The position numbers and the translations under genes were made by a program. The notes under the pieces were generated by a model that saw only the letters and a program-made list of their open reading frames with translations, made no database searches and was not told the origin of the DNA. From Betaproteobacteria bacterium (GTDB lineage: Bacteria > Pseudomonadota > Gammaproteobacteria > Burkholderiales > SG8-41), in contig CANJQI010000013.1 in the NCBI GenBank assembly GCA_947476215.1, forward strand, positions 1 to 49,425: a DNA stretch of 49,425 nt, given 5' to 3'. Positions within the stretch are counted from its first letter, which is position 1. Each line of letters opens with the position of its first letter. This document shows positions 496 through 12,593 of this stretch, piece by piece.

Positions 496-1233
496 TCACG
501 CAATTCGCGCCAGATCTCGCTCTAAAGTCGGCAGGAAATCGGCGGCGGTTCTGGCAAAGAAATGGCCGCCTTGAAATATCCGAAGGGAAAAGCTCACTCC
601 TGCAAATCGACGCCAATCCTGCATGCTCGTCGCCTGGGCGGCCAGGTCCTCGTTGCCCGAGTAGGCCAGAATCGGACACGACAGCGGCAAATCCGGCACT
701 GGATGCTCAACCAAACCGATGTCTGCGCGCAAGATCGGGAGCATCATCTGGCGAAGTTCCGGATCTTGAAACACCAGTTCCGGCACCCCGCCGTAGCGCC
801 TGATGTGCTCGATAAACTCATCATCCGGCAAAATCGCTGCGCCAGGCGTCGATGGTTTGCTATCTGGCGCGCCGTGCGCGGCAGGAATGAACAATTCGGG
901 TAGCGGCAGACCCAATTCAGCCAGACGATGACACAGGGCAAAGCCTATCTTCGCCCCAAGGCTGTAGCCCAGCAGGGAATACGGATGGTCCAGGTGCGGC
1001 GCCAATGCAATGGCTAACTCATCCACCAAGCGCCCCAAATCCTGGTGGCAGGGTTCGTTCAGCCGGGTTTCCCGCCCAGGATATTGCACCGGCACTACCG
1101 ATACCTTATTCAGGTTCTTGCGCCATGGCAGGAAGAAAGAAGCGCCGCCTCCCGCAAATGGCAGACAAAACAGGCGGCGAGCCGCGGACTCACCCCCAAA
1201 ACCAAACGGAAACCAGCTGCTTTTATCAACCAA
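496..1233 (-). CDS. Type II thioesterase (NRPS editing hydrolase)
   Basis: A 245-residue alpha/beta hydrolase of the GrsT/TycF/SrfAD group. Visible family marks are LFCLPFAGGGAS near residues 21-32, VPVQYPGRE near 48-55, the nucleophile elbow GYSLGA with Ser91, an acid in YSGNED (Asp196) and the C-terminal QGGHFF (His224). Type II thioesterases remove mis-primed or stalled acyl groups from carrier proteins, so the job here is probably housekeeping for the large synthetase upstream. The start codon is TTG at 1233 (or an undetected later start), overlapping the TGA of the preceding gene by 8 bases, which suggests translational coupling. The family assignment is secure; the pairing with the synthetase is inferred from the neighbourhood. 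Confidence 0.9.
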   Translation of the reverse strand: MVDKSSWFPFGFGGESAARRLFCLPFAGGGASFFLPWRKNLNKVSVVPVQYPGRETRLNEPCHQDLGRLVDELAIALAPHLDHPYSLLGYSLGAKIGFALCHRLAELGLPLPELFIPAAHGAPDSKPSTPGAAILPDDEFIEHIRRYGGVPELVFQDPELRQMMLPILRADIGLVEHPVPDLPLSCPILAYSGNEDLAAQATSMQDWRRFAGVSFSLRIFQGGHFFARTAADFLPTLERDLARIA

Positions 1234-1744
1234 GCCGCGATTCCGCCCTCAAGCCTGGCGCAAGCTGTTTGCCTTGCGTGTATTGCGTCTCAAAATAATT
1301 TTTCAGGGTACTTTTTTTACTGCCTAAAAAGTTACCGCCGGTCTCGTAATGTTTTTGAAAAATCTTGCCGACCGCATAGACTGCAGCTGCGTTGGTAAGC
1401 GAAAGGAACCCGATGTAGGTCGCGTGCCCGAACAGCGGGACGCCCTTTACCGCAGACTTGGCTTTGGCCGCAAAGTAGAGAGGCGCAATGCTTCCGATAA
1501 GCGAGAGCAGAAGTTTGTAGGCCACCAGCTTGCGAGGAACAGGAAAATCGTAAATCGCCGCAAGATCCCGAATCATCTTTACCTCGATGCCGGTGACGAC
1601 CGCCACATCAATGATGAATGAGGGTATCAATGCGCAGCCCATGGCGGCGATAACATGATTTCTGATGCAAAGCTCCGCTCTACGTTCCCGCCCCGATGAA
1701 ACATCGTGGGTTTGCGAAGCAAGGGCATCAATATCTTCCGACAT
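1226..1744 (-). CDS. DUF697-like small membrane protein
   Basis: A 172-residue protein with a hydrophilic N-terminus and about three hydrophobic segments (roughly residues 30-52, 76-95 and 103-125). The arrangement IPSFIIDVAVVTGIEVKMIR, followed by DLAAIYDFP, matches the DUF697 (YcjF-tail/GTPase-associated) pattern, in which an Ala/Pro-rich helix precedes a conserved 'xxQxxMixxLaxxYgxp' segment. Its biochemical role is unknown; relatives often sit next to dynamin-like or Era-type GTPases, none of which is here. The stop codon overlaps the thioesterase start, and the gene lies 91 bp downstream of the DUF4350-like gene, so all are probably one transcript with the NRPS. The charged C-terminus is probably cytosolic. 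Confidence 0.7.
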   Translation of the reverse strand: MSEDIDALASQTHDVSSGRERRAELCIRNHVIAAMGCALIPSFIIDVAVVTGIEVKMIRDLAAIYDFPVPRKLVAYKLLLSLIGSIAPLYFAAKAKSAVKGVPLFGHATYIGFLSLTNAAAVYAVGKIFQKHYETGGNFLGSKKSTLKNYFETQYTQGKQLAPGLRAESRLG

Positions 1745-1835: not shown

Positions 1836-2825
1836 CTATTTGATCCGATTGCTCAGCCAATGCATCAGGTTGAGTATGAACTGCTTGTTGTTGGGTGCAT
1901 CAGGATTGTGAAAGCCGGTGGGGTAGTCATTCGCCCATTCCGCGTAATTCACCGAAAACATTGATGCCTCTCCGAATACCGCGACCCTGCCTTTGCCCGG
2001 TCGCAAAACCACGCCCTGATACAAGCCTTCTGCGGACGCAAAAGGCGTTTGCAGGGAGATATCGACATGATCGCTAGGCCACGCAATCTTCGCGCCACGG
2101 CCCAATTCCAGAATCGGCGCAAACGCTACGCCGGGGCGCATCCGAAACGCATTTCCGGTAAAGCTGACGACTAAAGGAATGCGCTCGCCTTTTTTAATTC
2201 CATTGGTCACCGGATGAGCGCGTAGTTTGCCGACATTGGGCGTCGCAGGCTCCCGATAAAATTTAATCAGATTCATGTCTCCCGGCTTGTAGGTGAAGGC
2301 CGCGTCAAAGGCGAAATTATTCAACATGAGCACGCCAAAAGCATCGCCGAGCTTTTCCGCCGCGCCGGGAAACGGCATGTGATCGGCGATTAAAAGCAAG
2401 GACCCGCCCGCATTAACCCAATCGCGGACCGCTTTTATTTCGTCCTCGGTAAATGCGTCGGGCGCCGGAAGCAGCCATTTGTCCTTGGTTCGTTTCTCAT
2501 TGGCATTTTTTTCATTCAACGCGTTGCAGATGACCAGGATATCCGCCTCGGCAAGCGTTTGGGCGCTCAGGCGCTCGCGCAGGGGCTTGACCGTGGCGCC
2601 ATCGGCGATAAGGAGGTCCGCGAAGCCCTTAAAGCGATCATCCATGGTCTGATAATTATTGTGGGCTTCATCGATGAGGACACGAGGACCGGCGCCACTC
2701 TTAAACGCGGGATTGGCCACCGTCACCACGTAATTCCCGGTTCCGACAATCCCCTTCGGTTGTGCAAAGGCTAGATTGCACAGCAATACTACCGACATGG
2801 ACACCATGGTAATCATCTTGAACAT
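1836..2825 (-). CDS. Secreted DUF4350-like protein (class I glutamine-amidotransferase-like fold)
   Basis: The ATG at 2825 is preferred: it yields a clean signal peptide (MITMVSMSVVLLCNLAFAQ near residues 4-22), whereas longer frames run into the 3' end of the synthetase gene. The 329-residue product has VLIDEAHNNYQTMDDRFKGF near 47-66 and the segment AVRDWVNAGGSLLLIADHMP near 145-164. Both are typical of DUF4350/GldG-like domains that resemble glutamine amidotransferases but are mostly uncharacterised. The late FGEASMFSV also fits. The frame starts 68 bp after the NRPS stop, in the same direction, so cotranscription is likely. A periplasmic role linked to the peptide product is conceivable but unproven. 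Confidence 0.75.
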   Translation of the reverse strand: MFKMITMVSMSVVLLCNLAFAQPKGIVGTGNYVVTVANPAFKSGAGPRVLIDEAHNNYQTMDDRFKGFADLLIADGATVKPLRERLSAQTLAEADILVICNALNEKNANEKRTKDKWLLPAPDAFTEDEIKAVRDWVNAGGSLLLIADHMPFPGAAEKLGDAFGVLMLNNFAFDAAFTYKPGDMNLIKFYREPATPNVGKLRAHPVTNGIKKGERIPLVVSFTGNAFRMRPGVAFAPILELGRGAKIAWPSDHVDISLQTPFASAEGLYQGVVLRPGKGRVAVFGEASMFSVNYAEWANDYPTGFHNPDAPNNKQFILNLMHWLSNRIK

Positions 2826-2893
2826 TGTTAGCTGCTTTCGAAAATTTAAGAAACCTACCCTTGCCAGAGATTCTACCCAATAGCGGTTTATCT

Positions 2894-5800
2894 CTACAAA
2901 TCCGTCAAAAATCCGCTCAGCGTCGCCGCCAGCACTTTCGCGTTGGTCGAAATCATCATCGTCAAATGATCTCCCGGGGCTTCGCCTACCGATATGGGTC
3001 GATCGAAATAGGCCGTCCATCCCAAATCGCGTGTATCGTGCATGGCGGCGAATTGTTCGGAAACAAGCGCCTCCGGTTGCTGTTCCCGCGAGCGCAGCAA
3101 CAGCACGCGAGTGCTTGCATGGAGTCCTTCGGGCGCATAGGTCAAGCGCAAGTTCGCTTTATAGACCTCGATAAAGCCACGGAAATTACGAATGTCGGAA
3201 CCTTCCGGCAAGACCCCAGCCTCGATTAAGCGGCGGTGCAATAAGCCCAGTTGCGCGTCGCTCTCAAGCGCCTCGAATTGCTCAGCGCTTACCCTCGCGT
3301 CTAGCGTGTACATATTCGAGACGATGTCCGAGACTTGCGCCAACCACCGGGCTTGGCTCCAATCCTCTCCGGTGGGCCGGAAGAAATGCGGCGCAGGCGT
3401 ATCGAGCAGCACAAGCACCTCCGGTTCACGACCCGCATCATGCAATTGCCTGGCCATTTCGAAGGCCACTAAACCTCCGAAAGAATGGCCTGCCAGAATC
3501 CGCGGAAATTCGTGTCCCTCGCGTTTGATTGCCTCGATATAGTGCCGCGCCAAATCCTCCACGGTGCTAGGCGTAGGCGTCACGCCATCGAGTCCGGGCG
3601 GCTGCAAACCGAAAAACGGACGATCCGCGCCCATGGCGCGCGCCAGATCATGGAAATAGACAACATTACCGCCGGCTCCAGCGGCGCAGAAAAATGGCGC
3701 CTTGTTTCCTTGAGTTTGAATTGGGACCAGCGACGCCCATTCAGTTTCTTTGATATCACCGCGAAGCAAGCGGGCCATGGATTCAACCGTGGCGCTTTGA
3801 AACAAACTGGCCAATGGTAAATTGCGACCGAATCGCCGCGCAATTTTCGCCATCAATCGCACCGCGATAATCGAATGCCCGCCCAAATCGAAAAAATCGT
3901 CGCGGATGCCTATGGGCCGCAGATCCAGAACTTCTTCCCACAGATGAACCAGGGACAATTCCACATTGTCGCGAAAACCAATCCGCTCACCCAAGCCTTG
4001 ATTGCGGGCATCATCGGGCAAGCGCAGGGCGAGCCGGTCGATCTTCCCATTGGGCGTCAACGGCATGGCTTGGATAGACACAAAATGACTTGGAACCATG
4101 TAATCCGGCAACGCCGCCAGCATCGCCCGCCGCAGTTCATTCGCTTCAAGCTTTTCGCCTGCGTAATAAGCCACCAGGCGCGCATCACCCGCGCTATCCC
4201 GATCCAGAACCACGGCGCACGCCACCACCCCCGATTGACGAGCGAGGACATATTCGACCTCACCCAATTCAATCCGGAATCCGCGAACTTTCACCTGCTG
4301 ATCGCTTCGTCCCAGATATTCGATGCGACCATCGCGCAGATAACGCGCAAGATCGCCGGTGCGGTAGAGCCTTTGCCCCGGCACGAACGGATCGGCCAGA
4401 AAGCGTTCCTCGGTCAACTCAGGACGATCGTGATATCCCGATGCCAGACCATCACCCCCGATAAAGAGCTCTCCTGTCACGCCCACCGGTTGTAAGTTCA
4501 TCCGAGCATCCAGGATCATCAGACGGGTGTTGGCGATCGGCCTGCCTATGGGGATGGTGGCATGAAGCAAATCTGCCTCAGTCACGCGTTGTAGCGCGGA
4601 CCAGACCGTGGTTTCCGTCGGGCCGTACATATTCCACAATTCATCGCAGCAATCCAGCAACTGCCTGGCCAGACCGGAACTCAGTGCCTCACCGCCACAA
4701 AGAATCTTCAGTCCGCTTTGTCCTTGCCATCCTGTTGCCAATAACATGTTCCAGGTGGCGGGAGTCGCTTGCATCAGCGTAACCTGCTCCGCGGCGATGG
4801 TTTTTATCAATTCATTCGCATCACGTGTTACCGCCTCGTCGGCAATGATGATCCTGGCGCCCGCGCTCAAGGGGAGAAAAAGTTCCAGCAGCGCGATATC
4901 GAACGAAATGGTGGTCACCGCCAGCAGAATATCCTCGGCGCGGATTCCCGGCGTCTGCCGCATGGCATACAGAAAATTCGCCGCGGCTCGATGGGCAACC
5001 ATCACACCCTTTGGCTTGCCGGTGGAGCCTGAGGTGTAAATAACGTAGGCCAAGGGGTCGGTGCCGATATTTTGGTGATTGGCGGCAACAGGTTCCGCGA
5101 TTAGACTTGCCGGATTATTCGCCCTATCCAAAAGAAAAACAGCGCAATCCACTGCGGGTAATTCGGATAAGCATGCAGACTGAGTCACCAGCAGGCGCAC
5201 TCGGGCATCATCCAGCACAAAGCGGATGCGCTCCGGTGGATAGTTTCGATCCAGAGGCACATAGGCGCTGCCCGTCTTGAGGATCGCCAGCAATCCAATC
5301 AGCATGTCCGGCGAGCGCTCAACGCAGAGCGCGGCCAAGGTTCCTGGACGTAATCCCGCAGCGCGCAGTTGCGCGGCAAGTAGATCCGCGCGCTCATCGA
5401 GCGCCCGGTAGGTAAGCTTTTCTTGGTGGAACTGAACTGCGATTGCACCCGGGGTCCGCCTTGCCTGGGCTTCAAATATCCCATGAAGGCTCAACGGCCC
5501 ATTGAATTGAGCGGCAGTCCTGTTCCATTCCACGGCCATGCACGCCGCCTCCTCGACGGACAGCAAAGGCAAGCGATCCACAGACTGATTCGGGTCGTCG
5601 GCAATCGCCTCCAACAAATTGGCATAGTGGGCGCCAAGCCGATCCACGGTTTCGCGGTCGAACAAATCCGCGTTGTATTCGAACGAGGTTTTCAAAACGC
5701 CATTGCGATCGCTAATCGCCAGGGTCAAATCGTATTTCGACACTACCTGTCGCGAGACAATCTCCGTTATCTCCAGGCGATCCAGCGCCGGGGTTACCGA

Positions 5801-8800
5801 GGGCGCGTTCTGCATCGAAAACATCACCTGGAATAGCGGCGAATAGCTCAAGTTACGCTGTGGCCGCAATTCCTCGACCAATTGCTCGAACGGAACCTCC
5901 TGATGCGCAAAGGCTTCCAGCGCGATGATTCGCGCGTTGCCGAGAAATTCAGCGAAGCCTTGATCGGGCACGACCGCCAGACGCATGACCAGGGTATTCA
6001 CGAAAAATCCGATCAGCGGTTCAAGCTCGCTGCGGGATCGATTGGCGGTCGGCGATCCCATGACGATGTCCCGCTGCCCGCTGTAACGCGCCAGCAAAAC
6101 CGCGAACACCGCCATCAGGAGCATGTACAGCGAGACCCCGGATTGCTCGGCAAGACGCTTTAGTCGCGCCGACAGGGAAGATCCCAGCGATTTCTCGATG
6201 GAGTCTCCGGAAAATCGTTGTATCGCCGGTCGCGGCCGATCCGTGGGCAACTCCAGCAAAGCAGGGGCGCCTGCGAGACGCGTTCGCCAATATCCCATTT
6301 GGCGCTTCAGTTCATCACCGGCCAGATAGCGACGCTGCCAATGCGCATAGTCCGCATACTGAATGCGCAAACGCGGCAGCGGAGAATTATTGCCTGCGGC
6401 GAAGGCATTATAGAGACGGCTCCACTCGGACACCATCACGCCCATCGACCATCCATCGGAAACGATGTGATGCATGTTGAGCATGACAATATGCTCGGAT
6501 GGCGCAAGGATCAGTAATGTGCTGCGGAACAAAGGGCCTTGCGCCAGATCGAAAACTTCCTCCGCATGCGCATGCAATGCCCGGCTCACCTCGGCGGATT
6601 GCTGTTCCGGCGCGTATCCGCTCAGGTCGGACTCCGCCATAACAGGTATTGATTCAGCGATGGACAGCGTTGGCACCCCATCAAGCGTTTCAATGCGACT
6701 GCGCAGCACTTCATGACGCTCTACGATGACGCGCAAGGCCGCTGCCAACGCGTCACGCCGCAACGGTCCCTTGAGGCGCAATGCAACCGGCATGTTATAC
6801 GTCGTGCCGGCGCCTTCGAGCCGATCTAAAAACCACAGCCTCTGCTGGGCGAACGAGAGCTGCAATGGGGCCTCGCGCGTCACCGGCGCAATGGTCTCGG
6901 TCCCCGGCTGGCCCAGTCGGGCATAACCCAGGATCTCCGCCATTCCCCATGAGGGTTCGCCGAGAAAATCCTCCTTGTAAATACTCCGCCAACGATCGGC
7001 GACGCTAGGATCGATACGGCTATGCGTATGAAATTTGATATCCCCCAGCATCTTGGATTCCCGGTGGATGCCGTTGGTCATTCGCGTTGAAGAATTCTCG
7101 TCGTCGTAAATACGCAGCATCTCGGGCACGTAGTCGATCGCCATGAATTCGCACATGCGCCTGACCGCCTGTTCCGGCTGTTGGGAGATTTCCTCGAAGC
7201 CGATGGCGAGCTGGCGTTGCCGGGGAATTCCCGCCAGGAACTCGACAATATTGCGGTGACTGTGCAACCAAATCAATTCCGCCAATCGGCGCCGCGGAAT
7301 CTTGTGCGGATAACGAAAGAATATCTGGTCGAGCTTTGCTTCTTCGAACGAACTGATCATGCCGTAGGGATGGCGATGCAGGTGGATGTACAGGGGTTCG
7401 TCGAAATACTCCTCCGCGCGTTGCATCACCCCGACATCCAATGCATACGAGGGCGATTTATCAACCAGGATGCGTCCATCGAGCCAACTTTGCAGTTCTC
7501 CGTAGAAGGACTTGACCGAAGTCTCGCCGCGTTCGCGCGTGGCCATGATACGTTTAGCCTCGTCTGCGTCCACACCGCGTGCTTGCATCACCGCCCGCAG
7601 CGTACCCTCCAGCCAAAAGGCATCCCGTCCGGAACAAATCTCCTTGCGCTGAGCCAAGGTGTCAAATCCCAGCAACTCCAGTTCCGGCGGCGAAAAAAGC
7701 TGCGGGTGGCCGCCCAGCAGCACGCGCAATAAAGTCGACCCCGATCGCGGCGGTGAAAGAACGAAGATTGCGCGGGGGTTGTGTCGTTTGTGGTCACCTC
7801 CGCGAGCGCGAGTTTCAACACTTGGCAAACTATTCGTCCCGAGGCGTTCCATTGATGGCGCGCCAGGGGAAAAAGCGATGGTGGGCGGTATTAAGCGTCG
7901 AAAAGCATCGACATCCGATTCCGAAATCCTACCGGATACCTCCATCGCAGTGGAGCTATCCTGCACAGCACCCAGCCTGGCCATCGCTTCGGGGTAATGC
8001 ACGCACAGGTATTCCACCAAACGGCGAATCGTCGGCGCCTCGAAAAGCGCGACCACATAGACCACACTATGCAGATGTGCCTGGAGCTTGTTCGCCAGAA
8101 TCGCGCCACGGATGGAATCGCCGCCAAGTTCAAAGAAATTTTGATCGATGCCGACTGTAGAGATACCCAACACCTCGCACCATAACTCGGCCAACAATCG
8201 TTCCATCGGCGTTTGCGGCGGAACGAAGGCCGGCCCGCCCCTTAGCCCCTCGGCAGCGTGCAGCGCCAGCAGGTCGGCAAGTAGCTTGCGGTCCAATTTC
8301 CCGTTGGTGGTGAGCGGCAATCGCTCCAAAACCAACACCGCGGCAGGCACCATGTAGTCGGGCAAGCGTGAAGTCAGGTACGCGCGCAGGGTCGAGGGCA
8401 GCGTATCGTCCTGCCAATCCCTCGATACGGCATAGGCGACCAAACGGGCGCCGGCCGCGTCGTTTTTGGCCTCCACCACGGCCTGCGAAACCCGAGGATG
8501 CTGTGTAATACAAGTCTCGATTTCTCCCAGTTCTATTCGAAAACCGCGAATTTTTACCTGCTGATCCATTCTCCCCAAGTATTCGAGCTTGCCATCGGGA
8601 CGCCAGCGCGCCAGATCGCCGCTGCGATAAGCGCGCCCCGCCTGCCCGATAGAGGCATCGGGAATGGCGATGCCAGGCAATCTGCCAACAATGAATCGCT
8701 CCGCCGTTAGCGCCGGTAACTTGAGGTAGCCCTTGGCCACACCGGCGCCGCCGACAATGATCTCACCGCCCACGCCAATTGGTACCGGCTGGCCATACCG

Positions 8801-11446
8801 GTCGATCAGATCGATAGAAAGATCCGCCAGCGGGCGGCCAATGACCCCCCCCCCCGCGGCGATGTCCAGCGCGTTTAATCGGTGAAATGTTACGTGCACC
8901 GTCGTTTCGGTAATCCCGTACATGTTGATCAGTTGCGGCGCATCCAAGCCATGACGATCAACCCAAACCGAAAGGCTGCGCGGATCAAGCGCCTCACCGC
9001 CGAAAATCACCCATTTCAAGGCGAGCTCGGAACCGCCGTCCCCCGCATGCTTAGGTAGATCAATTTCGTGTCGATCACGCGAGCTGCGATCAGCCTCGAT
9101 CAGTTGTCGAAAAGCCGATGGGGTCTGGTTGAGAACCGTGACGCCGCTGCGCTTGATCAAGTCGCAAAACTGATCGGGGGAGCGGCTAATTGCAAACGGC
9201 ACCACCACCAAGCGGCCGCCATACAGCAACGCACCCCATAATTCCCAGACGGAGAAATCGAATGCATAAGAATGGAACAGGCACCACACATCGTCCGCGC
9301 CGAATCCAAATAATTCCTCGCTGCACATGAAGAGCCTTGCCACGTTGGCGTGCGTGACTTCTACACCCTTTGGCCTTCCTGTCGAGCCCGAGGTATAGAT
9401 CACATAAGCCACGTCGGCGGCAGCGCTGCTGAGTTCTGGGGCCCTCGATGGCTCATCCGCCAAGCCGGGGTCACCAAGATCGACAATCGGGACATCAAGC
9501 GCCGGCTCGCAGCGATACGCCAGCACAACGCCAACATCGCTGTCCTGCGCCATGTACCGCAATCGCTCCTCCGGATAGGACGGATCCAAGGGAACGTAGG
9601 CTGCTCCGGCTTTGAGAATCCCCAGTATGCCCACCACCAACTCGATAGAACGCTCAACGCACAATCCGACGCGATCGCCACGGCTCACACCCAGGCGCAG
9701 CAAACGATGCGCGACCTGATTGGCGCGCTCGTCTAGCAGTCGATAACTCAAGCCTGCGTCCTCGATGCAGACCGCGATTGCATCGGGGCGAATTCTCACC
9801 TGCAATTCAAAGGCACAATGCAAGGTGATGTCCACCTTGAAATGCCCATTGCCGCCGCGCCAGTCCTCAAGCTGTCGTGTTTCCTCGCTACTCAGCATGG
9901 GCAGGGTACGAACACTCGCGTTTGGGGTGGCGACCAATCCCTCCAGCAGCAGGCGGAAATGGGCAATCAGACGAACAATACTTGGCCGCTCAAACAGATC
10001 GGTGTTGTAACGAAAGAAACCCTTGAATCCCTGCGGGCTTTCTTCCATGGAAAGCACCAGATCAAATGGCGCATTCAAGGACTCGGTGGGCTGTGGGGTA
10101 ATGCTCAGACCATCCAGAGTCACTTCGCCCATCGGCGCGTTTTGCAGCGCGAACAACACCTGGAACAAGGGCGTGTGATCCAGATTACGCTCCAGGCCCA
10201 ATGCCTGTATGAGTTGATCGAATGGCATCTCGCAATGTTCATAGGCTTCCAGCGCGGTCTTCTTCACCGCCTCCAACAGCTGCATGAAACTCGGATTCGC
10301 GGAAAGATCCAGGCGCAACGCAACGGTATTCAGAAACAGACCAATCAGTCCCTCGGTCTGACTATGAGGCCGCACCGAAATGGGCGATCCAACGACCACG
10401 TCCTCCGCGTCCGTATGCCGGCAAAGAAGTACACCCAAGGCAGCCAACAGCGCCATGAACGGCGTCACGCCGGCCTGAACGCATAGCCTGCCCATTCGCC
10501 GCGAAAAATCAGCATCCAATAAAAAATGCTCCACGCAACCGATATTCCGGCGGATTCTTGGCCGTTGATGATCCGTGGGCAGCGCCAGAAAGCCTGGCGC
10601 GCCGTCTAGCTTTGTACGCCAGTAAGACAGGTGGCCTGCCAGCCGCTCCCCGCTCATGCGCGCCTTTTCCCAATGCGCATAATCGGCATACTGAACCGGG
10701 AGGGCCGGCAATGGACTTCCGCCGTTAGGCGGCGGGTCGGCCGAATAGTGACGATACAGCCGGGAGATTTCGTCCACGAGAATACCCATAGACCAGCCGT
10801 CGGAAATAATGTGGTGCATGGTCAGCAGGAACAAATGCTCCGCGGCGGCGCACCTCAGCAGCAGCACACGCATCAAAACTTCACCGCGCTGCAAGTCAAA
10901 GGGCATCGACGCTTGTTCATGCACGACCCGCGTCACTTCAATTTCCCTGGCTGCATCCTCCAGCACGCTCAAATCGAGCAGGGGCAACGCCAAGTCGACA
11001 TGCGCCAAGGGGATTTGCACCGGCGCGTCGTCTTCGATACAAAAAGCGCTGCGTAATACCTCGTGGCGTTGCACCACTTCGTTGAGCGCGCTTCGCAAGG
11101 CCGCGATATTCAGATCACCGCAAAGGCGCAATACAATAGGCGGCATCACGTAGGTCGCTCGATTACCGTGATCGAGTTGGTCGAGAAACCAAAACCGCTG
11201 CTGCGCCGCGGAAAGCGGCAGCCCTCGCCCCCGCGCTTGTCGTGGAATCGGCGCCTCCACCCACGCGCGATCCTCTGCTCGTTGCCGGAGCAGAGGGATC
11301 AAGCTATCTTTTAGACTAGACAATCGCGCCAGCAATGCCGGGCTCAAAACCCCCTTGGGCGCGCTGTAACGTAAGCCTCCGCCCTCGAGTGCTAGCTTTA
11401 CATCGAGGGCATCTAACTCCGACAACAACGACATTGCTCTATCCAC
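2894..11446 (-). CDS. Two-module nonribosomal peptide synthetase with embedded sulfotransferase domain
   Basis: 2850 residues. Domains in order: TubC-type N-terminal docking domain (5-56); C1 (74-510, HHIISDG at 211); A1 (535-1055, YTSGSTGRPKG); PCP1 (1080-1145, LGGDS, Ser1111); linker; sulfotransferase (1226-1508); C2 (1528-1955, HHIVSDG at 1659); A2 (1975-2470); PCP2 (2490-2562, LGGHS, Ser2525); TE (2580-2850, GHSFGG with Ser2655, probable Asp2682 and His2827). Read against GrsA, the A1 pocket is D-F-W-N-I-G-M-V-H-K, the known threonine code. The A2 pocket is D-I-L-Q-L-G-M-V-W-K, close to glycine codes of the DILQLGLIWK type (less sure). The docking domain implies an upstream partner protein, absent here. 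The start is GTG at 11446 with GAGG 7 nt upstream; an ATG four codons later (11434) is an alternative. The terminal TE implies release of the product from this protein. Confidence 0.96.
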   Translation of the reverse strand: MDRAMSLLSELDALDVKLALEGGGLRYSAPKGVLSPALLARLSSLKDSLIPLLRQRAEDRAWVEAPIPRQARGRGLPLSAAQQRFWFLDQLDHGNRATYVMPPIVLRLCGDLNIAALRSALNEVVQRHEVLRSAFCIEDDAPVQIPLAHVDLALPLLDLSVLEDAAREIEVTRVVHEQASMPFDLQRGEVLMRVLLLRCAAAEHLFLLTMHHIISDGWSMGILVDEISRLYRHYSADPPPNGGSPLPALPVQYADYAHWEKARMSGERLAGHLSYWRTKLDGAPGFLALPTDHQRPRIRRNIGCVEHFLLDADFSRRMGRLCVQAGVTPFMALLAALGVLLCRHTDAEDVVVGSPISVRPHSQTEGLIGLFLNTVALRLDLSANPSFMQLLEAVKKTALEAYEHCEMPFDQLIQALGLERNLDHTPLFQVLFALQNAPMGEVTLDGLSITPQPTESLNAPFDLVLSMEESPQGFKGFFRYNTDLFERPSIVRLIAHFRLLLEGLVATPNASVRTLPMLSSEETRQLEDWRGGNGHFKVDITLHCAFELQVRIRPDAIAVCIEDAGLSYRLLDERANQVAHRLLRLGVSRGDRVGLCVERSIELVVGILGILKAGAAYVPLDPSYPEERLRYMAQDSDVGVVLAYRCEPALDVPIVDLGDPGLADEPSRAPELSSAAADVAYVIYTSGSTGRPKGVEVTHANVARLFMCSEELFGFGADDVWCLFHSYAFDFSVWELWGALLYGGRLVVVPFAISRSPDQFCDLIKRSGVTVLNQTPSAFRQLIEADRSSRDRHEIDLPKHAGDGGSELALKWVIFGGEALDPRSLSVWVDRHGLDAPQLINMYGITETTVHVTFHRLNALDIAAGGGVIGRPLADLSIDLIDRYGQPVPIGVGGEIIVGGAGVAKGYLKLPALTAERFIVGRLPGIAIPDASIGQAGRAYRSGDLARWRPDGKLEYLGRMDQQVKIRGFRIELGEIETCITQHPRVSQAVVEAKNDAAGARLVAYAVSRDWQDDTLPSTLRAYLTSRLPDYMVPAAVLVLERLPLTTNGKLDRKLLADLLALHAAEGLRGGPAFVPPQTPMERLLAELWCEVLGISTVGIDQNFFELGGDSIRGAILANKLQAHLHSVVYVVALFEAPTIRRLVEYLCVHYPEAMARLGAVQDSSTAMEVSGRISESDVDAFRRLIPPTIAFSPGAPSMERLGTNSLPSVETRARGGDHKRHNPRAIFVLSPPRSGSTLLRVLLGGHPQLFSPPELELLGFDTLAQRKEICSGRDAFWLEGTLRAVMQARGVDADEAKRIMATRERGETSVKSFYGELQSWLDGRILVDKSPSYALDVGVMQRAEEYFDEPLYIHLHRHPYGMISSFEEAKLDQIFFRYPHKIPRRRLAELIWLHSHRNIVEFLAGIPRQRQLAIGFEEISQQPEQAVRRMCEFMAIDYVPEMLRIYDDENSSTRMTNGIHRESKMLGDIKFHTHSRIDPSVADRWRSIYKEDFLGEPSWGMAEILGYARLGQPGTETIAPVTREAPLQLSFAQQRLWFLDRLEGAGTTYNMPVALRLKGPLRRDALAAALRVIVERHEVLRSRIETLDGVPTLSIAESIPVMAESDLSGYAPEQQSAEVSRALHAHAEEVFDLAQGPLFRSTLLILAPSEHIVMLNMHHIVSDGWSMGVMVSEWSRLYNAFAAGNNSPLPRLRIQYADYAHWQRRYLAGDELKRQMGYWRTRLAGAPALLELPTDRPRPAIQRFSGDSIEKSLGSSLSARLKRLAEQSGVSLYMLLMAVFAVLLARYSGQRDIVMGSPTANRSRSELEPLIGFFVNTLVMRLAVVPDQGFAEFLGNARIIALEAFAHQEVPFEQLVEELRPQRNLSYSPLFQVMFSMQNAPSVTPALDRLEITEIVSRQVVSKYDLTLAISDRNGVLKTSFEYNADLFDRETVDRLGAHYANLLEAIADDPNQSVDRLPLLSVEEAACMAVEWNRTAAQFNGPLSLHGIFEAQARRTPGAIAVQFHQEKLTYRALDERADLLAAQLRAAGLRPGTLAALCVERSPDMLIGLLAILKTGSAYVPLDRNYPPERIRFVLDDARVRLLVTQSACLSELPAVDCAVFLLDRANNPASLIAEPVAANHQNIGTDPLAYVIYTSGSTGKPKGVMVAHRAAANFLYAMRQTPGIRAEDILLAVTTISFDIALLELFLPLSAGARIIIADEAVTRDANELIKTIAAEQVTLMQATPATWNMLLATGWQGQSGLKILCGGEALSSGLARQLLDCCDELWNMYGPTETTVWSALQRVTEADLLHATIPIGRPIANTRLMILDARMNLQPVGVTGELFIGGDGLASGYHDRPELTEERFLADPFVPGQRLYRTGDLARYLRDGRIEYLGRSDQQVKVRGFRIELGEVEYVLARQSGVVACAVVLDRDSAGDARLVAYYAGEKLEANELRRAMLAALPDYMVPSHFVSIQAMPLTPNGKIDRLALRLPDDARNQGLGERIGFRDNVELSLVHLWEEVLDLRPIGIRDDFFDLGGHSIIAVRLMAKIARRFGRNLPLASLFQSATVESMARLLRGDIKETEWASLVPIQTQGNKAPFFCAAGAGGNVVYFHDLARAMGADRPFFGLQPPGLDGVTPTPSTVEDLARHYIEAIKREGHEFPRILAGHSFGGLVAFEMARQLHDAGREPEVLVLLDTPAPHFFRPTGEDWSQARWLAQVSDIVSNMYTLDARVSAEQFEALESDAQLGLLHRRLIEAGVLPEGSDIRNFRGFIEVYKANLRLTYAPEGLHASTRVLLLRSREQQPEALVSEQFAAMHDTRDLGWTAYFDRPISVGEAPGDHLTMMISTNAKVLAATLSGFLTDL
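6923..7771 (-). other. In-line PAPS-dependent sulfotransferase domain of the NRPS
   Basis: Residues 1226-1508 of the synthetase. FVLSPPRSGSTLLRVLLGGH (from 1228) is the 5'-phosphosulfate-binding loop of the Sulfotransfer_1/3 fold. HLHRHPYGMISSFEE (1355-1369) is the 3'-phosphate-binding strand and helix, and RMTNGIHRESKMLGD (1455-1469) is the C-terminal motif. The wording SPPRSGSTLLR...SPPEL...VDKSPSYALD...GIH...GD resembles, from memory, the sulfotransferase of the curacin synthase CurM and related olefin synthases, which sulfonates a beta-hydroxyl so that it can leave. The domain sits directly after PCP1, whose LGGDS core is the variant usually seen before epimerisation domains. An N-terminal linker of about 75 residues (1146-1225) includes ISESDVDAFRRLI, which may be a docking element. 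Confidence 0.9.
8845..8855 (-). repeat. Homopolymer of 11 G (coding strand) inside the first A domain
   Basis: Eleven consecutive C on the plus strand encode Ala864-Gly865-Gly866-Gly867 and the first base of Val868, just before the VIGRPLAD motif. The frame is intact at this length. A gain or loss of one base would frameshift the NRPS after about 865 residues and remove everything from late A1 onward. Confidence 0.95.
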
Positions 11447-11723: not shown

Positions 11724-12197
11724 ATGGCTCGCGAAAATTCGGCCATCGGCAATGGTGCGTCGCATAGACAACGCCCCGCGACGCTCAATGAGTTTCTCCT
11801 GCAACCGCATGATCAAGACCTGCTGTGCTTTATCACCTGCGGCAGCGCAGATGACGGCAAGAGCGCTCTCATTGGACGCCTGCAATGGGAGTCTCGACTG
11901 CTGTTCGATGACCAGTTGGCGGCGCTGGAATCCGACTCCAGAAAATACGGCACGCAAGAACAGGCACTCGACTTTGCCTTGCTGGTCGACGGTTTGGCGG
12001 CCTAACAGGAGCAAGGCATCACCATCGACGTGGCCTACCGCTATTTCACCACCGGCAAGCGCAAATTTATCGTGGCCGATACGCCGGGCCGCGAACAAGA
12101 CACTCGCAACATGATAAGCGGCGCCTCGACCGCGAACGCGGCCGTGCTACTGGTCGACGCCCGCCACGGTCTGCTGACCCAGACCCGCTGGCACGCC
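11724..12197 (+). pseudogene. cysN: Broken fragment of sulfate adenylyltransferase GTPase subunit (CysN/NodQ)
   Basis: The N-terminal GTPase domain of CysN is recognisable: [18 protein letters not shown] (P-loop, usually GSVDDGKSTLIGRL), [18 protein letters not shown], then [22 protein letters not shown] and [14 protein letters not shown]. It is dead by several criteria. A TAA at 12003-12005 sits where the family has Glu (GAA) in LAAEREQGIT. The G3 motif DTPGHEQYTRNM has become [12 protein letters not shown], losing the His. Homology stops after TQTRWHA near 12197, about a quarter of the way into a normal CysN. The ATG overlaps a TGA that ends a short KLEGHF tail (11704-11724), reminiscent of the CysD C-terminus and of cysDN coupling; that upstream remnant is only suggestive. 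CysD/CysN (with CysC) make APS/PAPS, the cofactor needed by the sulfotransferase domain encoded divergently. Confidence 0.88.
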
Positions 12198-12516: not shown

Positions 12517-12593
12517 TGGTGCGCCCGGAGAGATTCGAACTCCCTACCCCTTGGTTCGTAGCCAAGTACTCTATCCAGATGAGCTACGGGCGC
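12517..12593 (-). tRNA. tRNA-Arg (anticodon ACG)
   Basis: 77 nt including an encoded CCA. The acceptor stem GCGCCCG/CGGGCGC is perfect. The anticodon stem CTTGG/CCAAG encloses the loop CTACGAA (anticodon ACG, read as ICG after deamination). The T arm GGGAG-TTCGAAT-CTCTC is canonical, and the D arm GCTC..GAGT is present. Confidence 0.97.

Follow-up and report, generated by a model that had tools for sequence, protein, structure and literature searches.

In-line sulfotransferase (ST) domains have been described in both peptide and polyketide assembly lines, and the nearest described NRPS cases are cyanobacterial. According to the accessible text of the varlaxin study, the first module of AerB consists of OMT, FkbH, PCP and ST domains (PMC10143770). 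The available part of the suomilide study proposes that the OMT, FkbH and ST of BslA make the sulfated methylglycerate of the suomilides; it assigns the bsl cluster of Nostoc sp. KVJ20 to these compounds and gives 2-O-methylglyceric acid 3-O-sulfate as a constituent of the isolated suomilides G and H (PMC13122637). ST domains are also reported for the cyanopeptolin and dysinosin synthetases (PMC2533009, PMC6520454), the one of cyanopeptolin (oci) in 2008 (PMC2533009). Alkene formation by an ST followed by a TE is described for curacin and proposed for haliamide in the accessible sections of two further papers (PMC5577590, PMC6274090), while SulN, as far as the available text goes, sulfonates the amine of a PCP-bound peptide (PMC11298585).

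The window analysed here, a stretch of 49,425 nucleotides from a Betaproteobacteria bacterium, encodes an NRPS with an ST in mid-line. It resembles BslA and the varlaxin/dysinosin AerB (OMT, FkbH, PCP, ST, then C-A-PCP-E) in the order PCP-ST-C, in having an ST of the Nostoc-type clade, and in the PCP-bound beta-hydroxy thioester that would be the substrate. In the cyanobacterial enzymes, however, an FkbH-delivered glycerate loading module stands at the line start, whereas the window NRPS has a Thr-code A domain in place of FkbH and the O-methyltransferase before the PCP. With the STs of CurM and OLS (4gbm, 4gox) the window ST shares one family, including the PAPS loop and the Glu of SPPEL. Those enzymes are PKSs in which the ST and then a TE close the line and sulfate is lost, according to the accessible text (PMC5577590, PMC6274090); the window has PCP-ST-C in mid-line instead of this terminal carrier-ST-TE. 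The oci ST, likened here by description, also lies inside an NRPS line but belongs to a glyceric acid start unit (PMC2533009, available part). SulN of sulfazecin likewise carries out a PAPS-dependent sulfonation of a PCP-bound residue, but it is free-standing, targets an amine and leads to a beta-lactam (PMC11298585, available part), whereas the window ST is part of a 2850-aa frame.

The initial annotation knew of no characterised NRPS with such a domain. In this general form the statement does not stand, since BslA and AerB carry an in-line ST for PCP-bound glycerate; the new element would be an ST acting on an A-loaded aminoacyl-PCP. No such ST, and no A-PCP-ST-C acting on an amino acid, was found in the literature searched, including the accessible parts of PMC4558948 and PMC6070996. 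Searches for an ST with dehydroamino acids and a condensation domain, and for sulfated Thr or Ser in a nonribosomal peptide, returned no paper, with most subscription journals outside their reach.

Architecture of the NRPS

The frame contains, in Pfam order, TubC_N, Condensation, AMP-binding, PP-binding, Sulfotransfer_3, Condensation, AMP-binding, PP-binding and Thioesterase. The features are as follows.

2894..11446, minus: bimodular NRPS, 2850 aa (single open frame without internal stop; Pfam order)
11282..11431, minus: TubC_N N-terminal docking domain (PF18563, E 9e-14)
9869..11221, minus: C1 condensation domain with MHHIISDG, nearest solved Txo2/Txo1
8297..9811, minus: A1 adenylation domain (PF00501/PF13193), code DFWNIGMVH via alignment
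8006..8197, minus: PCP1 with ELGGDS (PF00550, residues 1084-1147)
6923..7771, minus: in-line ST of CurM/OLS type (PF13469, PDB matches, model)
5543..6862, minus: C2 condensation domain with MHHIVSDG
4022..5476, lower limit approximate, minus: A2 adenylation domain, code DILQLGMVW
3776..3967, limits approximate, minus: PCP2 with DLGGHS (PF00550 in two stretches)
2912..3697, lower limit approximate, minus: TE domain with GHSFGG (PF00975, E 8e-24, residues 2584-2717)

We read this architecture as TubC_N-C-A(Thr)-PCP-ST-C-A(Gly)-PCP-TE, taking DFWNIGMVH to be a Thr code and DILQLGMVW a Gly code. The real start is probably the ATG at 11434, with whose MSLLSEL the TubC_N domain opens. The proposal that an ST is built into the NRPS between PCP1 and the second C domain is borne out: 6923-7771 on the minus strand, residues 1226-1508, is an ST domain, and SPPRSGSTLL, RHP and the GIH...GD tail are all found within frame 2894-11446. 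A fusion created by assembly is excluded because the same layout is present in a same-genus genome with an 89% identical ST, and this independent genome, together with a CurM match at E 4e-57, rules out an assembly artefact or a chance motif.

The sulfotransferase domain

Pfam places Sulfotransfer_3 at residues 1227-1439 of the NRPS (E 3e-23). In phmmer searches of the PDB the window ST matched the CurM ST (4gbm, E 4e-57) and the OLS ST (4gox, E 1e-53) over 264-265 residues, a full-length similarity; the remaining matches were weak (E 0.012 and above). A profile from 34 rows retrieved the CurM ST at 1.4e-97 and the OLS ST at 1.1e-88, followed by protein-tyrosine sulfotransferases at 1e-10 and above. 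The structure prediction and CurM alignment suggested as a check gave a confident AlphaFold2 model (mean pLDDT 90.5, pTM 0.90) and the CurM ST as the nearest solved chain.

The window ST has the PAPS-loop Arg, the SPPEL Glu, DK, RxP and the 3′-phosphate-site Ser of the CurM/OLS family, residues with presumed roles in the PAPS site and in catalysis. None of the PAPS-binding or putative catalytic residues whose loss would have spoken against an active enzyme is missing from its alignment. Among 93 aligned rows (92 STs of the sampled loci, the sample being the best 80 of 132 with the window, L003, L005 and L006 added, and one PKS ST) Lys105, Arg133, Ser141 and Asp244 are conserved in 93/93. The Arg of the PAPS loop and the SPPEL Glu are each present in 92/93 with one gap, the value for SPPEL being inflated by SPPEL-like letters in one of the two peptide patterns that found the 80 loci. 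In the alignment the SPPEL Glu falls on the second Glu in the GEET segment of tyrosine sulfotransferase 2. We take the latter to be the catalytic base of that enzyme and the SPPEL Glu to be a putative catalytic residue.

When the NRPS is compared with that of the same-genus relative, L005, all other domains examined have a higher dN/dS than the ST (0.107): 0.155 for C1, 0.233 for A1, 0.264 for C2, 0.194 for A2, 0.217 for TE, 0.160 and 0.195 for the two PCPs, and 0.310 for TubC_N. The linker between PCP1 and the ST is loosely conserved (53% identity). In more distant pairs dS is saturated in several domains, so that their ratios tell little.

Distribution of the layout and substrate codes

Genomes were scanned with two peptide patterns and the best 80 of 132 loci taken. 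Together with the window, L003, L005 and L006 these gave 92 typed ST domains, after L001, L002, L004, L007, L008 and L009 had been dropped as repeats; L005 and L010, with identical STs, were both counted. A-PCP-ST-C is the context of 51 of the 92, so that the search for other proteins of this order, which had been proposed, finds a common layout within this best-80-of-132 sample. The others are PCP-ST-C without a called A domain (15), A-PCP-ST at the frame end (10), A-PCP-ST-TE (6) and various arrangements (10). In the same sample the order is spread over 11 phyla by record label; Cyanobacteriota is represented there by a single weak A-domain call (L070), and the labels of some bins seem to be wrong. 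Its recurrence across many bacterial groups suggests that such enzymes probably make sulfated peptides. The layout of the window NRPS is rare in its own family (2/74 genomes) and in the order (2/399 genomes drawn, E 1e-15), the window genome included in both counts. Orthologous NRPSs, whole or in large part, are found in eleven other loci (L005, L011-L019, L086), and fragments in L010 and L020. The near-identical NRPS contigs of L009 and L010 are filed as Chitinophaga pinensis and Spartobacteria, names that look like binning or naming errors.

Substrate codes were compared between A domains directly upstream of an ST and the other A domains of the same loci, leaving out those without a called PCP after them; the counts rest on the best 80 of 132 loci plus the window, L003, L005 and L006. 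Hydroxyl residues are encoded in 40/63 readable codes upstream of an ST and in 8/84 elsewhere (Fisher p 4e-12), and the enrichment persists without the 13 orthologous loci, the window being kept (29/52 versus 8/69, p 2.6e-7). The 40 comprise Thr 26, Ser 7, Tyr 6 (two of them uncertain, with DAFT-type codes) and Hpg 1. The other 23 have no hydroxyl residue assigned and consist of eight DAE-type codes, five of the IGVQRV kind, four DIPR, two DIWE, one Gly and three others; one Ile/Val-like code is among the 23. Threonine as the substrate of the ST module agrees with the A1 code as we understand it, and all 11 orthologues for which the code is complete (L005, L011-L019, L086) retain it.

The remark that PCP1 is of the kind usually found before an epimerisation domain also holds, in view of the PCP motif statistics. 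PCP1 has ELGGDS, and the residue preceding the PCP Ser is D or N in 78/89 PCPs upstream of an ST in the best-80-of-132-loci sample. It is D in 25/26 upstream of low-scoring, E-like C domains and H in 25/30 upstream of C domains.

Phylogeny of the ST and C domains

In an IQ-TREE phylogeny of 93 ST rows, the two PKS-type rows (Calothrix L089, and L032, KS-AT-KR-ACP-ST) are separated from the remaining 91 at 100/100 support; the tree was midpoint-rooted, its bootstrap had not settled, and CurM itself lay outside the row set. The group of 91 holds the window ST and the cyanobacterial FkbH-linked STs of Nostoc type, whose loci have the order PCP-ST-C-A-PCP; in L043 and L057, the two tested, FkbM-type methyltransferase and FkbH domains precede the ST. 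The window ST is 52% identical to that of L042 (Nostoc sp. KVJ20) and 37% to a Calothrix PKS ST. Strain and layout suggest that L042 is BslA itself, the frame called there ending after the ST. A recent transfer of a plain PKS ST into this NRPS is not favoured, given that the NRPS STs form their own clade, to which the two PKS-type rows do not belong.

On this tree Thr as substrate is clustered but spread (14 changes versus a shuffled mean of 22.8), while Ser and Tyr show hardly any clustering (60 and 51 of 500 shuffles reach equally low values). Residue specificity can therefore not be read from the tree. A FastTree of 139 C domains gave no support for a special dehydrating C domain after the ST: those following an ST do not come together in one clade (24 changes), and the HHxxxDG motif of C2 is of the ordinary kind. 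They are nevertheless more clustered than shuffled labels (mean 42.1, 0/500 as low), a clustering that the orthologues favour.

Assembly line and sulfate activation

A whole-genome search found no C domain outside this NRPS. The genome has one long KS-bearing frame, a KS-AT-KR-ACP protein of 1545 aa on contig C240; beside it lies an A-PCP protein that is truncated at the contig end. The code of the latter, DATKVGEVG, is presumably that of Asn. The two proteins are 61% and 59% identical to the products of the genes that immediately precede the orthologous Thalassomonas NRPS. There, PCP, aminotransferase, C, A(Asn) and PCP in one protein are followed by KS-AT-KR-ACP and then the NRPS. TubC_N domains bind EREEG-like tails, and EREEG-like residues are present at the C-terminal tail in 8/8 PKSs examined, the C240 protein included. 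The NRPS is therefore likely to work with the A(Asn)-PCP and KS-AT-KR-ACP proteins of C240. The Thalassomonas NRPS is followed by an unknown protein, a type II TE, an FAD oxidase and an outer-membrane efflux gene. Of these four, the first two are also present in the window, together with the truncated efflux gene.

1836..3020, minus: conserved neighbour, no Pfam family above cut-off
1226..1744, minus: DUF697 protein (PF05128, E 1e-9), with homologues beside the NRPS in L014, L015, L019 and L020
496..1233, minus: stand-alone type II thioesterase (PF00975, E 6e-37), with homologues beside the NRPS in L011 and L019
1..261, minus: truncated outer-membrane efflux (OEP) gene, assigned by clustering

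The protein of 1836..3020 has homologues in 7/7 loci compared (L005 90%, L016 63%, L011 50%, L014, L020, L019, L015); because its frame overlaps the end of the NRPS, its start is probably further in. The OEP fragment has longer homologues in L011, L015 and L016, identified as OEP in L011 and L015. From the Thalassomonas line, the kept neighbours and the orthologous loci, we would expect a lipopeptide of the type amino-fatty-acyl-Asn-ketide-Thr-Gly as the probable product. The Thalassomonas line is preceded (L108:309-4902) by 3-hydroxyacyl-CoA dehydrogenase, acyl-CoA dehydrogenase and HAD-like genes, reminiscent, we assume, of those for hydroxymalonyl- or methoxymalonyl-ACP.

Genes for PAPS formation are present in the genome: a CysN-CysC fusion (C49), truncated at a contig end, CysD and a second CysN. 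The window itself has a CysN remnant near the NRPS, next to a tRNA gene.

11784..12197, plus: broken CysN (sulfate adenylyltransferase large subunit) remnant (TIGR02034, E 2e-62)
12517..12593, minus: tRNA-Arg (ACG), just past the remnant (ARAGORN)

The remnant has 138 codons with one in-frame TAA, covers TIGR02034 model positions 1-125 of 406 and is 68.8% identical to the CysN part on C49; with the tRNA it has the look of the edge of an inserted or rearranged stretch. In the best-80-of-132-loci sample, sulfate-activating genes lie near the ST in 14/84 sources, namely the window remnant and 13 loci: L003 (cysD, cysN, CysC), L062, L081 (CysD alone) and ten of Nostoc type (CysC). None was found in the orthologous loci within the stretches examined around the NRPS.

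Proposed function of the ST

In view of the above, we consider it probable that the ST sulfates the beta-hydroxyl of threonine on PCP1 at the expense of PAPS and that the sulfate is retained in a lipopeptide. The A(Asn)-PCP and KS-AT-KR-ACP partner of C240 would dock via TubC_N, A1 would load threonine onto PCP1 and C1 would join it to the chain from the partner PKS. Either before or after C1 acts, the ST would move sulfate from PAPS to the beta-hydroxyl of the PCP1-bound threonine. The O-sulfothreonyl chain could then be handed by C2 to glycine and released by the TE as a sulfated lipopeptide ending in Thr(OSO3)-Gly, most likely with its sulfate kept. Retention is suggested by the clade shared with FkbH-linked STs and by the Tyr and Hpg modules, since beta-elimination of sulfate is impossible from phenolic residues. 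Some observations fit this proposal less well. In the solved relatives sulfation serves elimination, the L042 ST shares only 52% identity with that of the window, the layout occurs in 2/74 genomes of the family, the PKS partner lies outside the window, 23/63 codes before an ST have no hydroxyl residue assigned, and Cys genes accompany the ST in 14/84 sources of the best-80-of-132-loci sample, none of them orthologues.

In CurM and OLS the sulfate is lost by decarboxylative elimination. A comparable activating role in the window NRPS is rather unlikely. The threonine beta-OH would be made a leaving group, after which C2, the TE or a spontaneous step would eliminate it to dehydrobutyrine, or an amide N or O would displace it with ring closure. 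Such elimination or ring closure has to be considered because CurM does so on a like substrate, a beta-hydroxyacyl thioester, and the CurM and OLS STs are the nearest solved relatives; ST-then-TE alkene formation is known from curacin and proposed for haliamide in the accessible text (PMC5577590, PMC6274090). Six A-PCP-ST-TE proteins and one PCP-ST-TE in the best-80-of-132-loci sample resemble the ACP-ST-TE of CurM, and the clustering of C domains after an ST would allow some adaptation of C. The window ST, however, precedes a C domain and not a TE, Tyr members exist, one of them as ST-TE (L030), and the C tree and the C2 motif give no sign of a dedicated C domain. CurM-like elimination is also less likely because the window ST groups with the NRPS STs, a separate clade holding FkbH-linked members whose products keep the sulfate in the available parts of the reports (PMC10143770, PMC13122637). 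That A-PCP-ST-C in general is a PAPS-driven route from Ser or Thr to dehydroamino acids or small rings, with curacin logic in mid-peptide-line in many phyla, we regard as unlikely.

It is improbable that the ST targets another group, either an amine, giving a sulfamate, or a hydroxyl elsewhere in the chain, for example one made by the KR of the preceding unit. SulN offers a precedent in trans for the amine of a PCP-bound peptide (PMC11298585, accessible text), the C240 PKS module contains a KR, and some STs follow codes without an assigned hydroxyl residue; yet hydroxyl codes are enriched exactly at the ST module and the Thr code is kept in 11/11 orthologues. An inactive relic, as the broken CysN copy next to it and the separate contig of the candidate partner PKS might suggest, is most improbable in view of the lowest dN/dS against L005, the intact key residues, and the CysD and CysN-CysC elsewhere in the genome.

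If threonine O-sulfation with retention is correct, a Sulfotransfer_3 domain after A(Thr/Ser/Tyr)-PCP would predict an O-sulfated residue, a rule for reading gene clusters, and engineering would gain a part with which to sulfate a residue of choice; in-line amino-acid sulfation in NRPS modules would appear widespread, with 11 phyla by record label in the best-80-of-132-loci sample. If the sulfate is a leaving group instead, the domain would represent a new route to dehydroamino acids.

Other ST arrangements

Several sampled loci show unusual arrangements. Agrobacterium vitis pRvVAT039a (L003:12934-24158) has a 1215-aa A-PCP-ST-TE gene with code DAEVVGAVA, adjoined by an ectB-like diaminobutyrate transaminase, cysD, cysN with a CysC part, a methyltransferase and a transporter, an arrangement that looks like a small NRPS of CurM type able to supply its own PAPS. 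In L051:1-4281 the Gly code DILQLGMVW stands directly upstream of PCP-ST-TE, a misfit with hydroxyl sulfation. Two consecutive ST modules occur in the NRPSs of L061:2180-15316 and L084:2192-18418, the A domains upstream of the paired STs having the codes DIPRVGHVG or DIPRVGHIG. In L006:8394-14419, L062, L069, L077 and L081 the A-PCP-ST unit forms a gene by itself, and its A code is unusual (IGVQRVIGV or similar). In L006 the gene is followed by TubC_N-C-PCP-TE, and in L062, L069 and L081 a weak ST-like ORF lies upstream, of Stf0 type in L062.
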